Assembly: GCA_030700155.1 (NCBI GenBank)
Contig: JAUYJU010000004.1
Span: 1 to 44,262, forward strand
Length of the DNA: 44,262 bases
Reading direction: 5' to 3'
Origin: Candidatus Nanoarchaeia archaeon
Lineage (GTDB): Archaea; Nanobdellota; Nanobdellia; SCGC-AAA011-G17; JAUYJU01
In this document: piece after piece, positions 28,987-38,034 of the stretch
Layout: every line of letters starts with the position of its first letter
Numbering within the stretch: position 1 is the stretch's first letter
Notes under the pieces: generated by a model
Told to the model about the DNA's origin: nothing
What the model saw: the letters and a program-made list of their open reading frames with translations, nothing else
Databases searched by the model: none
Made by a program: the position numbers and the translations under genes

Positions 28987-29193
28987 CTATTGATAATCCT
29001 TACCTTTGTGCCAACCTAGGTGTTCTGAAAATTGTCTTTGTAGATTTGCTGTCCAAGTTAGGTTAAGAATTAATAATGCAATAATCAAATCACTCTTTTC
29101 CCAACTTCCACCAAACAAGATTCTTAGAGCCTGGTAAATCAAGTAAATCGTAAATATTACTAACCCCCATCTAATTAGACTATCTAATTTCAA
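28987..29193 (-). CDS. Small membrane protein (TTG start)
   Basis: 68 aa, two hydrophobic segments; TTG start overlaps TGA of the upstream 33-aa ORF. Confidence 0.55.
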   Translation of the reverse strand: MKLDSLIRWGLVIFTIYLIYQALRILFGGSWEKSDLIIALLILNLTWTANLQRQFSEHLGWHKGKDYQ

Positions 29194-29291
29194 ATTACGC
29201 CCCTTGATTTTAAAAGTAGCAATATTAATATTAGGATTAGTATCACAATTGAGAGGTTCAAGAGTTTTTGTGATAAGTCCTCTTTTTTCAT
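29190..29291 (-). CDS. 33-aa single-TM microprotein
   Basis: Complement reads MKKEDLSQKLLNLSIVILILILILLLLKSRGVI*; coupled (TTGA overlap) to 28987..29193. Confidence 0.45.
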   Translation of the reverse strand: MKKEDLSQKLLNLSIVILILILILLLLKSRGVI

Positions 29292-29322
29292 ATTAAGTTA
29301 CAATACAATCTGGTTTATATGT

Positions 29323-29352
29323 GTTTCTTAGAACTTTTCGGAAATCTTACGG
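29323..29352 (-). promoter_or_regulatory. TTCCGGAA-type upstream motif, copy P3
   Basis: Reverse complement ccgtaagatttccgaaaagttctaagaaac; aligns without gaps to 36931.. and is followed by TATA-like tataaacc at the same spacing. Confidence 0.45.
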
Positions 29353-29400
29353 AATACTACTATAGGGAATGTTTTTAATTGTTGTTATCTACCTTAGTTT

Positions 29401-34234: not shown

Positions 34235-34298
34235 TGATTACTATAATCAAACTAAGAACTATCTCCCCTAAACTTAATTTGTACCTCTTACGTTTCAT
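34206..34298 (-). CDS. 30-aa single-TM microprotein
   Basis: Complement reads MKRKRYKLSLGEIVLSLIIVIIIGRLLGWW*; ATGA overlap with 34295..34498. Confidence 0.45.
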   Translation of the reverse strand: MKRKRYKLSLGEIVLSLIIVIIIGRLLGWW

Positions 34299-34498
34299 TT
34301 AAGCACCTCTTCTTTATTCAGGATTATATATCCTATTAAGATAGTGAAGTAGACTATACTTAATAAAGTTAACCATTTAAAATTTTTTAAAAAATCTAAA
34401 AATTGAAGAAGATTATTTATTGTTATTATAACTACACCCGCAGCTAGAAGAGGAATCCATACCTGCTCTTTTTCCTTGAAGCTATCTAAAAAGGCCAT
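34295..34498 (-). CDS. Small two-TM membrane protein
   Basis: 67 aa MAFLDSFKEKEQVWIPLLAAGVVIITINNLLQFL...; promoter-like sequence upstream. Confidence 0.6.
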   Translation of the reverse strand: MAFLDSFKEKEQVWIPLLAAGVVIITINNLLQFLDFLKNFKWLTLLSIVYFTILIGYIILNKEEVLK

Positions 34499-34521
34499 AA
34501 TACTAGAATTAATTTAAGTTT

Positions 34522-34560
34522 AATAAGCTTTATTCAGAAAATTCCGGAAGATTTTCGGTT
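34522..34560 (-). repeat. 39-bp inverted repeat arm / motif copy P1
   Basis: Reverse complement aaccgaaaatcttccggaattttctgaataaagcttatt matches 36929-36967 at 35/39. Confidence 0.8.
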
Positions 34561-35056
34561 AAATATTTTTTAGCATATCTGCAATTTCTTTCCAATTATT
34601 TACTCTTTTAACATAATTAAGAAATCCTTCCCAACCTTTAATCTCACTTTCTTGAGGTTTGAATAAATATAAATTATCTACATAATCTATCATATACTTA
34701 AGAACTTCTAATCTATCATCTATAAAGTGGGTTATTCCAATTTTTGCACAAATCGGACCTTTTCCACTTCTTTCCCTACAAAAATGCAAACGTTCTTTGG
34801 GTATTCCTGTGATTTCATAAAATCCTGTGTGGGTCATCCATTCCAAACTTTTTCTTTGATTATTCTCACCGCATTTAGAAACTATGAAAAGTTTATCTTT
34901 GAAGATTCCTTTGTTTAATTTAGAAAGATATTCAAAAGCTCCTGGTACTGCTGTAGTGTTTAGATAGTTATCGCTAAAAAATGAGGTATCTTTTGAGTCA
35001 TTTATCCTGTCTATTATTACACCTCCAATATCTACTCCTAATTTATATTCTGTCAT
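34559..35056 (-). CDS. HAD-like protein
   Basis: LGVDIGGVIIDR...KLFIVSKCG...THFIDDRLEVL. Confidence 0.6.
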   Translation of the reverse strand: MTEYKLGVDIGGVIIDRINDSKDTSFFSDNYLNTTAVPGAFEYLSKLNKGIFKDKLFIVSKCGENNQRKSLEWMTHTGFYEITGIPKERLHFCRERSGKGPICAKIGITHFIDDRLEVLKYMIDYVDNLYLFKPQESEIKGWEGFLNYVKRVNNWKEIADMLKNI

Positions 35057-35159
35057 AATTAAGATCTGGAGAATTTGCTATATTAAATTAACCTTATAAT
35101 AATATATATTGACATTATAGGTAAATTTATAAATAATCTACTTCTGAAACAGTCTTATC

Positions 35160-35235
35160 GGGCCAGTGGTCTAGTGGCTATGACATCACCCTTACAAGGT
35201 GGAGGTCACAGGTTCAAATCCTGTCTGGCCCACCA
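35160..35235 (+). tRNA. tRNA-Val (anticodon TAC), encoded CCA
   Basis: GGGCCAG acceptor pairs CTGGCCC; anticodon loop CTTACAA; T-loop TTCAAAT; 3' ACCA. Confidence 0.95.
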
Positions 35236-35242
35236 TTTTTAT

Positions 35243-35316
35243 GCGCGAGTAGTTTAGCCTGGTTAGAATGGAGCGTTGCCAACGCTTTGACCCGGGTTCG
35301 AATCCCGGCTCGCGCA
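35243..35316 (+). tRNA. tRNA-Gly (anticodon GCC)
   Basis: GCGCGAG acceptor pairs CTCGCGC; anticodon loop TTGCCAA; T-arm CGGGTTCGAATCCCG. Confidence 0.95.
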
Positions 35317-35377
35317 TCTACCCTTTGTGTGATTTTGAAGCGCAAACTATTTAAGTTAGAACTACTTCTAGAAAAAG

Positions 35378-36553
35378 ATGGTAGATAGATATATTGATCC
35401 ACATAATTTTGAAGAGCGTTATAATAAATGGAGAAATAAAATAAACTCTATTGATGGCATTTGTAAAAAAGATAGCGATCTTATCTTGACTTACCTAGAT
35501 GATATGTCGCAAGGCATGAATGTAGCAATAGGTCATAGCAAAGGATCAAGAAGCTTTACTAGACTGATGACTTTAAGAACAAGAATACCTCAAATTATTA
35601 GACTTTTAGAAAAACATTTAGAGATAAACAGCATAACACAAGCGACAGAAAGAGATTTAAGTAAATTATTTACAATGATGAGAACTGGCGCTATAGGGAA
35701 AGATAATGGGGGTAAATATAAATCAACAAGAGACTTTGTTAAGGATCTAAAAAGCTTCTGGCATTGGTATCAAAAATATATTTTTGAGACTAAAAACAAA
35801 CACCTACTTGATATTACTCTTAGTTTAGATACAAGCAAAGATGAAAAACCAAAATGGGTGTGGATTAAACAAGAAGATCTAGAAAAACTTGCCAACAATT
35901 CTACACAATATAAGTATAAGGTAATGCTTTACCTATTATTTGAAAGTGGTATTAGAGCGCCAAGCGAACTTTTCAATGTTAAAGTTAAGGATTTGATTTT
36001 TAAAGAAGACTTTGCTTTACTACACGTTAGGTATTCAAAAACTTTTGAAAGAAAAATCAAGCTTTTCTTTTCAATAAGTGTGCTGAAAGGATGGATAAAT
36101 AGTCAAAACTTAAAACCAGAAGATCACTTATTTAATCTTTCTGCTGGGAAAACTAATCAATATCTTAAGAGACTAGGTAAACGGGTTTTAGGAAAGGAGT
36201 TTACTATGTATGATCTAAGGCACTCTAGTGCTGTATACTGGCTTCCTAGATGCAAAACTGAGTCTGCTATGATGTATCGTTTTGGCTGGAAGAAGGCTGA
36301 TAAAATATTCTATTATTCGGAATTTTTAGGTATGCGTGATACTACACAACAAGAAGATCTTTATGTTGATACAACTAAAACTGAACTTGAGAATGAGATT
36401 ACAAAAGAGAAACAGAAAAGAGAGATGCTTGAAAGCCAGATGGAAGATATGAACAAACAAATTCTTCTTATGAAGAAAGCTTTTGTAGGTTTTGCCAAGT
36501 CTTTGCCAAAAGAGAATAGAACTAAAATATTGAAGGAGCATATTTTGAATTAA
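35378..36553 (+). CDS. Tyrosine recombinase / phage-type integrase
   Basis: LLFESGIRAPSELFNVKVKDL (box I Arg), TMYDLRHSSAVYWL (box II HxxR-like region), KIFYYSEFLG (Tyr); SAM-like N-terminus. Confidence 0.85.
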   Translation: MVDRYIDPHNFEERYNKWRNKINSIDGICKKDSDLILTYLDDMSQGMNVAIGHSKGSRSFTRLMTLRTRIPQIIRLLEKHLEINSITQATERDLSKLFTMMRTGAIGKDNGGKYKSTRDFVKDLKSFWHWYQKYIFETKNKHLLDITLSLDTSKDEKPKWVWIKQEDLEKLANNSTQYKYKVMLYLLFESGIRAPSELFNVKVKDLIFKEDFALLHVRYSKTFERKIKLFFSISVLKGWINSQNLKPEDHLFNLSAGKTNQYLKRLGKRVLGKEFTMYDLRHSSAVYWLPRCKTESAMMYRFGWKKADKIFYYSEFLGMRDTTQQEDLYVDTTKTELENEITKEKQKREMLESQMEDMNKQILLMKKAFVGFAKSLPKENRTKILKEHILN

Positions 36554-36572
36554 ACTACGGGGACTGTTTAAA

Positions 36573-36929
36573 GTGATAATTGAATTTAGTATAGAACATA
36601 AACGTAAAAGGGAAGATAGAGAAGCTTTGATTAATTATATGAATAAAGAATATAGTGCAGAATTAGTTTCTGTAAGCCATAACGGGCAAACTCCAATTTT
36701 AATAAAACTTTTAGGATTTTTGCCCATTCCATCTGCCTTGCTAAATATTTTTAACGAAGGAGCATATGAAGTTTTTATGGAGTGTTCAAAACAAATTAGA
36801 AAAAGATGTAAAAGTTGTGGTTTCCCAATAAATAAAAAAGATCTTATTGATAGACATAGACATGGTAGAAAGATAGATTGCAGATGTTGTTGGGATGATC
36901 TTGATGATAAAGGGAGGCTTAGAAAATAA
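36573..36929 (+). CDS. Hypothetical protein with Cys-rich (zinc ribbon-like) C-terminus (GTG start)
   Basis: CKSCGFPINKKDLIDRHRHGRKIDCRCCWDDL. Confidence 0.6.
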   Translation: MIIEFSIEHKRKREDREALINYMNKEYSAELVSVSHNGQTPILIKLLGFLPIPSALLNIFNEGAYEVFMECSKQIRKRCKSCGFPINKKDLIDRHRHGRKIDCRCCWDDLDDKGRLRK

Positions 36930-36967
36930 ACCGTAAATCTTCCGGAAAATTCTGAATAAAGCGTATT
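36929..36967 (+). repeat. 39-bp inverted repeat arm / motif copy P2
   Basis: aaccgtaaatcttccggaaaattctgaataaagcgtatt; 35/39 to reverse complement of 34522-34560. Confidence 0.8.
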
Positions 36968-37029
36968 AAAGCTGATTTCTAAGAATTAATCATACCAACC
37001 AGGGTATAAGCCTCAGATGTTCTCTGGGG

Positions 37030-38034
37030 CTATCTTTTCTCGTAAACAAGTCTTACTACGGAACTCTTAGACTTCCAGGGGTCAGCGTTGCAGTCTAAAA
37101 TTGCAAACAAATATCCACTTCTTGCTTTTCGTATGCCCATCTTTGCAACAGAATTATTGTTTTCTGGTGCAAGAAATTCAATATATCTTGCTGTCCTAGG
37201 GTCTTGTGGAGCATCTTGTCTTGGCATCCCCTGAGAATTTGCATTCGTCAACCATTCTTCAACATCCACAGACCAATTGCTCTTAAATGTTTTTTTTAAT
37301 ATTTCTGAGTAATTAGGCGTTAGTTTTCCATCAATAAACTTATGGTTTTGATTTAAGTAAAATGTTCCATTTTTCTTTTCAAATGCAGCATCAATCCATT
37401 CATAGCTTTCTTTATAGCGTGAATCATAAATTGAATTCTTAATTTCTTCCACTTCTTTTTTTGAAAGTTTATTTCCTAAACCGTCTCTTACATTATCTGA
37501 ATCTAAAAAGTGAAGAAAATCTGCATATTCTTTTAAAGTCATAATTCTTGCTTTTTCTTTATGCGCTTTTTCTTGAGCTTCATACCAATTACATTCCTCT
37601 AAAAATTCCGCCGATTGAGCAACATACAAATTATGCTGTGCAAAATTTATATATCTTGATAAATGAACAACGTAAACATCAAACTCTTGGGTAGTGTAGG
37701 CGCCTCTTTCATCATTTACTTTCACCTTGATTTTAGAGCTATACTCTTGCGATTTTGGAGTCCATCTAAGTTTCCCCTCTTCAAAAGAATGTGAGATAGC
37801 AAACACTGGATCCTTAGAGAATTTAAGTTCATGCAATTCCCTTCTCTCAAATTCGTATCTTAAAGGCTCTCCATCTGGATCTACGGCTTTTACATCATAA
37901 GAAAATTCTTCTCCAGTAAAAACCACTATATCTTTTGGAGGTGTAGAAGTGATTACTGGTGGACTGTTAGGTTTTCCAGAACAGCCTAAAAATGCTGTTG
38001 CACCCATTACTAATGCGCATAGTGTTTTTTTCAT
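37030..38034 (-). CDS. Ig-like lipoprotein with C-terminal formylglycine-enzyme/lectin-like region (uncertain)
   Basis: LMGATAFLGCSGKPNSPPVITSTPPKDIVVFTGEEFSYDVKAVDPDGEPLRYEF. Confidence 0.65.
   Translation of the reverse strand: MKKTLCALVMGATAFLGCSGKPNSPPVITSTPPKDIVVFTGEEFSYDVKAVDPDGEPLRYEFERRELHELKFSKDPVFAISHSFEEGKLRWTPKSQEYSSKIKVKVNDERGAYTTQEFDVYVVHLSRYINFAQHNLYVAQSAEFLEECNWYEAQEKAHKEKARIMTLKEYADFLHFLDSDNVRDGLGNKLSKKEVEEIKNSIYDSRYKESYEWIDAAFEKKNGTFYLNQNHKFIDGKLTPNYSEILKKTFKSNWSVDVEEWLTNANSQGMPRQDAPQDPRTARYIEFLAPENNNSVAKMGIRKARSGYLFAILDCNADPWKSKSSVVRLVYEKR

Follow-up and report, generated by a model that had tools for sequence, protein, structure and literature searches.

Introduction

Toxin-antitoxin (TA) modules are usually viewed as independent units, each under the control of its own antitoxin. 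For type II TA operons, control by the operon's own antitoxin is standard (PMC4803016); these are short two-gene modules of the VapBC, MazEF, and RelBE/ParDE types, in which each antitoxin normally binds an operator of its own that is palindromic and overlaps the promoter. Unrelated toxins under common control have their closest precedent in the SOS-induced toxin genes of E. coli (tisB, symE, dinQ, hokE, yafO, and yafQ), where several unrelated toxin or TA genes are placed under one transcriptional control (PMC8406316). That set is bacterial, consists of a handful of genes, and is tied to DNA damage. In archaea, promoters with an upstream activating site carry the regulator's site upstream of the BRE and TATA box and give rise to leaderless transcripts, and we know of no upstream-activated promoter set in archaea that targets mainly TA operons. 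A last point of comparison is the integron cassette array (PMC9668308), with its small tandem genes, a site at the preceding stop codon, and a tyrosine recombinase nearby.

Here we describe a promoter element that was met as a pair of inverted repeats in a 44,262-nt stretch of archaeal DNA (the window, which is a whole contig of its assembly) and that resembles each of these systems in part. As in autoregulated type II operons, the genes behind it form mostly short two-gene operons whose promoter has a palindromic operator close by, but one operator, lying upstream of the BRE and TATA box, serves unrelated families. In comparison with the SOS toxins, the operator is a different one and the set is larger and made up mostly of two-gene TA operons. 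The layout matches that of archaeal upstream-activated promoters, leaderless transcripts being predicted here as well. Whereas integron arrays carry attC sites, this element lacks attC cores, has the geometry of a promoter, and occurs in both orientations. A regulon in itself is a known kind of arrangement; the one proposed here is unusual in its membership, and the part of the journal literature that was searched yielded no account of a promoter common to archaeal or DPANN TA operons. Taken as a whole, the reading that we consider reasonably likely is that of a class-wide promoter with an operator, linked to TA genes and served by one putative common regulator.

Two inverted copies of a promoter element

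The preliminary description of this DNA reported inverted arms at 34522-34560 and 36929-36967, and their 35/39 identity was recovered at those coordinates. The repeat is in fact longer than had been claimed, reaching 42 nt with 38/42 matches (34519-34560 versus 36929-36970), and it is real, since 40 order-1 resamplings of the region yielded no 42-nt inverted match better than 31/42. Other parts of that description held as well: each arm starts inside the stop codon of the outermost ORF flanking it, both arms contain a TATA-like stretch, which falls on conserved TAT.AA columns of our extended alignment, and a tRNA-Val gene, a tRNA-Gly gene, and a tyrosine recombinase gene do lie between them (Table 1). 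The HAD-like label given to the minus-strand ORF could not be upheld, as this ORF matches no family in Pfam or NCBIfam.

The core pattern of the arms was searched in the window's own assembly (788 kb in 36 contigs), where the same sequence stands on other contigs. Thirteen copies make up a first alignment (A1), from which a sequence-only profile (R1) was built and the search iterated over relatives; the extended alignment (A2) holds 53 copies and has the consensus TCCGNAAATCTTCCGGAWWTTTCTNAGAAANNNTTATTAAG. Its strongest columns are CCG, AA, TT, and CGG, the A pair at positions 29-30, and TAT.AA, the dyad being the most conserved part. Behind the dyad, CCGNAA-N3-TTNCGG, the element has a T-rich spacer, then a BRE-like AGAA stretch, and then TATTAA. 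The operator dyad is imperfect and spans 15 bp, with its center some 53 nt before the start codon. Spacer letters vary among copies, while the promoter positions are fixed, and the two half-sites showed no signal of covariation beyond composition (p 0.82), a result that lends no independent support to contact by a dimer.

In most copies, an ATG falls +61 to +63 from where the element begins and some 20 to 26 nt past the TATTAA box. Among 52 copies at loci outside model building, mostly from other genomes, 28 have an ATG in the interval +60 to +64, against 1 to 10 (mean 4.4) in the other 5-nt bins (binomial p ~4e-17). A TATA box about 26 nt before the start, held at a constant distance, is what is expected of an archaeal TATA/BRE promoter. 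Because the box lies about 26 nt away and the start codon keeps its fixed distance at +61 to +63, the mRNAs are probably leaderless. The position weight matrix (PWM) threshold for element copies was a score of 22; in the same genome, the regions upstream of 72 ordinary genes reached 5.9 at best, with a median of -28.5. We regard it as very likely that the two arms are copies of this promoter.

Arm 1 and arm 2, compared in register, agree at 37/42 positions and have GAATAAAG in common, while no other nonredundant copy agrees with either of them at more than 34/42. Since the arms are thus closest to each other and share this stretch, one may derive from the other. Arm 1 is predicted to drive a gene for a 67-aa membrane protein. 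A paralogue of this protein lies behind another element copy in the same genome (L216, on contig C7), and more distant homologues in two genomes of another family (L211 and L212) have a diverged element at an equal distance. Behind arm 2, the interval +54 to +126 contains no ORF of 38 aa or more. Starting from the predicted arm 2 start site (~36991), the sequence can form two hairpins (fold z -3.3), the second followed by a T-rich tail that resembles a terminator site, and no second copy of this putative RNA was found in the genome. The output of arm 2 is possibly a small RNA, although arm 2 may also be an orphan promoter and the hairpin a terminator only. Some 20 of 124 copies, with arm 2 among them, lack any ORF of 38 aa or more behind them, and no tRNA gene stands directly behind any of these ORF-less copies.

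The window also holds a third, weaker copy. The two genes behind it belong to a recurrent element-led pair, in which a hydrophobic peptide of 33 to 50 aa is followed by a membrane protein of 68 to 109 aa (window, 28987-29291 minus; L069, 1502-1928 minus; L082, 215-690 minus). Judged by its sequence and layout, this pair is a candidate for a new TA-like or defense module.

Table 1. Features of the window that are discussed in the text
Feature	Position	Strand	Basis
Membrane protein of 68 aa, second gene behind third copy	28987-29193	-	ORF; same layout in L069 and L082
Hydrophobic peptide of 33 aa behind third copy	29190-29291	-	ATG at +62; sequence read directly
Third, weaker element copy	29312-29353	-	PWM 27.8; R2 E 9.3e-6
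Membrane protein of 67 aa, predicted arm 1 gene	34295-34498	-	ORF, start codon at +61
Arm 1, promoter element copy	34518-34560	-	R2 match 43.8 bits, E 1.9e-11; PWM; inverted repeat
Arm 1 TATA box, TTATTAA	34520-34526	-	Conserved TAT.AA columns 35-40 of A2; 22-28 nt before ATG
Arm 1 operator dyad, CCGAAAATCTTCCGG	34544-34558	-	Position in alignments A1/A2
ORF upstream of arm 1 (formerly HAD-like)	34559-35056	-	No family in Pfam or NCBIfam
tRNA-Val (TAC), between arms, outside element	35160-35235	+	ARAGORN, Rfam
tRNA-Gly (GCC), probable integrase target	35242-35318	+	ARAGORN, Rfam; same neighbor in homologues
Tyrosine recombinase (integrase), separate from element	35378-36553	+	PF00589, E 7e-7
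Cys-rich ORF upstream of arm 2	36573-36929	+	No family in Pfam or NCBIfam
Arm 2, promoter element copy	36929-36971	+	R2 match 38.4 bits, E 9.9e-10; inverted repeat
Arm 2 operator dyad, CCGTAAATCTTCCGG	36931-36945	+	Position in alignments A1/A2
Arm 2 TATA box, GTATTAA	36963-36969	+	Conserved columns of A2
Possible small RNA from arm 2	36991-37041	+	Hairpin 37009-37031 and T-rich tail; alternatively terminator only

Distribution among genomes

The archaeon's own genome has 28 copies of the element at E <= 1e-4 (profile R2). Within its order, 38 of 103 genomes are positive (R2), several of them with 10 to 21 copies, and in a sample of the class the element was detected in 34/234 genomes at E <= 1e-5. 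A sample of the phylum gave 44 positives among 371 genomes at E <= 1e-6, all in one class (Woesearchaeota-type DPANN archaea). An exact scan of 84,980 species genomes with a degenerate 29-mer matched 18 stretches. Contigs titled Woesearchaeota or Nanoarchaeota hold 12 of these; three more are in a bin titled "bacterium" (JAUYPF) that corresponds to G072, a genome of the same order, and the remaining three are in bacteria and may be chance matches. These matches place the archaeon of the window among the Woesearchaeota-type DPANN archaea. The same 29-mer had no match in viral contigs. The element is a class-wide promoter family. The suggestion in the preliminary description that the arms might be a duplicated, outward-facing regulatory element was therefore correct but understated, in that the duplicated unit belongs to a family present across the class and strongly preferring TA operons.

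Genes behind the element

A Pfam scan covered 95 first genes and 60 second genes behind the element. Among the first genes, MazE (7 genes) and VapB (5) were most frequent, followed by nucleotidyltransferases (NTP_transf_2), DUF4258, and PBECR2 (4 each), PIN, PLD nuclease, and LTD (3 each), and HEPN (2), with single cases of SNase, Mrr, TnpB-like, DNA methylase, LAGLIDADG, and phage-integrase-type proteins. The second genes include 12 PIN, 10 DUF2283, 4 PemK/MazF, 2 ParE, and 2 HEPN proteins. The operons driven are mostly two-gene, and the pairings that read as TA modules are those of DUF4258 or PBECR2 with DUF2283; VapB, RHH, or AbrB with PIN; AbrB or RHH with MazF/PemK; MNT with HEPN; and RHH or wHTH with RelE/ParE. 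For the pairing of DUF4258 with DUF2283, no paper was found in the portion of the literature searched.

TA operons account for 43 of the 95 cases (~45%), compared with 4 of 92 control ORFs (~4%; Fisher p ~2e-11), a comparison that sets operons against single ORFs and uses hand counts and partly hand-assigned TA labels. The control ORFs did not exceed 250 aa and came from eight 20-kb stretches, taken from the same genome or from related ones, and the 25 of their 83 Pfam families that were listed include one HicA. About half of the operons driven by the element are not recognizable TA modules; small membrane-protein pairs are another recurrent group, and nucleases and a few mobile-element genes also occur. 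With these figures in view, we hold the association of the element family with TA genes to be highly probable.

A putative common regulator

The same operator stands before many unrelated genes and is kept across genomes, as a common operator would be. The dyad precedes operons with VapB, AbrB, MNT, wHTH, and DUF2283 proteins alike, which, as far as sequence can tell, is not the pattern of operators that each belong to their own antitoxin. DUF2283 is not known to bind DNA. As the antitoxins fall into classes that are not related to one another (RHH, AbrB, wHTH, and MNT) or are DUF2283 proteins, they cannot all recognize the dyad, and a common trans-acting factor would best explain why they share it. 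Under the mechanism that we propose, one dimeric DNA-binding protein would act in trans, bind the dyad, and set the output of the whole set together, so that its members would be coexpressed. This factor would most likely be an activator or recruiter, not a steric repressor, because the dyad lies upstream of the BRE and TATA box and because divergent promoter pairs have one dyad in common, as happens in two places (C26, 4161-/4195+; C9, 9097-/9130+). That one putative regulator controls the element family seems to us somewhat probable.

A strong promoter could also work without any dedicated regulator. The dyad would then be an extended contact for a basal factor, either a TFB variant or RNA polymerase itself, and TA genes would simply tend to carry the element. 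The joint conservation of the BRE-like and TATA parts with the dyad is in keeping with such a promoter, as is the fact that no regulator was found; the one candidate checked by its distribution, a wHTH protein encoded behind a divergent copy (C26, 3491-3844), was rejected because it is absent at E <= 1e-5 from several element-rich genomes, G050, G057, and G069 among them. However, the TATA-like boxes of ordinary genes in the same genome are not accompanied by such a dyad, the dyad is the part of the element that is conserved best, and many genomes of the order do without the element although basal factors are universal. We therefore consider control by basal factors alone unlikely, and favor the common regulator.

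A broader form of the common-regulator proposal would make the TA arsenal of this whole class of ultrasmall archaea one regulon, under a single protein that recognizes CCGNAA-N3-TTNCGG and including the membrane-peptide pairs and small RNAs; on this we find the scales evenly balanced. Were it true, the uncharacterized genes driven by the element would represent new TA or defense families, which could be traced through the promoter. A single operator serving unrelated TA families would open the central control of toxins to direct test, and would do so in archaea that are probably host dependent and whose regulation is almost uncharacterized. The 42-mer offers a simple sequence handle by which new toxin, antitoxin, and small-RNA genes may be found through their promoter.

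The enclosed integrase and the cassette readings

It could be argued that the element is not primarily a promoter but a site of recombination or capture for small gene cassettes, akin to integrons or transposon ends, with the promoter features as by-products. Integrons exist in Archaea (PMC9668308), both arms begin at stop codons, and TA genes stand in tandem, each behind a copy and with similar immediate flanks (C26, at 5597, 6125, and 8937). Against this, likeness stops at the promoter once local duplicates are set aside, the spacer letters differ from copy to copy but the promoter positions do not, and divergent pairs share a dyad. The attC core motifs RYYYAAC and GTTRRRY were each present in 1/110 cases and together in 0/110, which rules out an integron attC array. 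Such recombination or capture sites appear very improbable beside the promoter reading.

The preliminary description had itself raised a mobile or invertible cassette, and its version, in which the tyrosine recombinase would act on the arms as its inverted sites and the enclosed 2.4-kb segment would be invertible or mobile, can draw on the enclosure of a recombinase beside a tRNA gene and on the mutual closeness of the arms, but it is scarcely credible given that dozens of other copies of the element have no recombinase with them, that none flanks the integrase homologues (loci L098 to L111), that similarity tracks promoter positions and ATG distance, and that the integrase has an expected target of its own in the tRNA gene. 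Copies elsewhere occur in both orientations, single or in tandem. The 39-mer is found many times upstream of unrelated genes, an outcome that the same description had named as telling against a cassette.

Beside the promoter family, then, the recombinase is a separate, tRNA-associated integrase and probably part of an integrated element. Homologues are present in 13 of the 103 genomes of the order, its own included. In three of the others, too, a tRNA gene on the same strand closely precedes the recombinase gene; it is tRNA-Gly in two cases (L098 and L111) and tRNA-Thr in one (L107). The gap between integrase and tRNA gene measures 60 to 110 nt in several genomes, and the distribution is patchy. 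A second copy of the tRNA-Gly 3' end, which would mark attR, was found neither in the window nor in the 36 contigs of the assembly, and a comparison of the integrase with named genomes gave no confirmed relative.

Copies in unusual settings

Several further observations deserve mention in their own right. A ribosomal protein gene that reads like L10e/uL16 (L012, 1501-1519 minus; L037, on contig C3 of G000) has a dyad, CGGAAATCTTCCG, that adjoins its TATA box. The dyad is about 8 nt closer to the box than in the element, possibly pointing to a different mode of control.

A group I intron in the 23S rRNA (RF00028, 53.9 bits; L006, 1332-1619 minus, on contig C33 of G000) holds a strong element copy. 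This copy (L034, 6440 minus) has an ATG at the right distance that opens an ORF of only 31 aa, and it may be what is left of the promoter of a lost homing endonuclease gene.

The best-scoring copy of all, on contig C9 of G000, has no ORF behind it and would drive a structured stretch of 131 nt (L032, 8960-9090 minus) that is stable (z -3.7), G+C rich, and without a match in Rfam, making it a candidate small RNA. GGDEF-domain diguanylate cyclases are unusual in archaea; two adjacent proteins encoded on the same contig (L032, 6700-8958 plus) nevertheless read like members of this group. In G238, several strong copies likewise have no ORF behind them (L173, L176, L177, and L192). The sequences that follow their TATA boxes are alike (e.g., AGAGTATCTTAGAGAATGAAAAAAAG), and they possibly represent a family of small RNAs.
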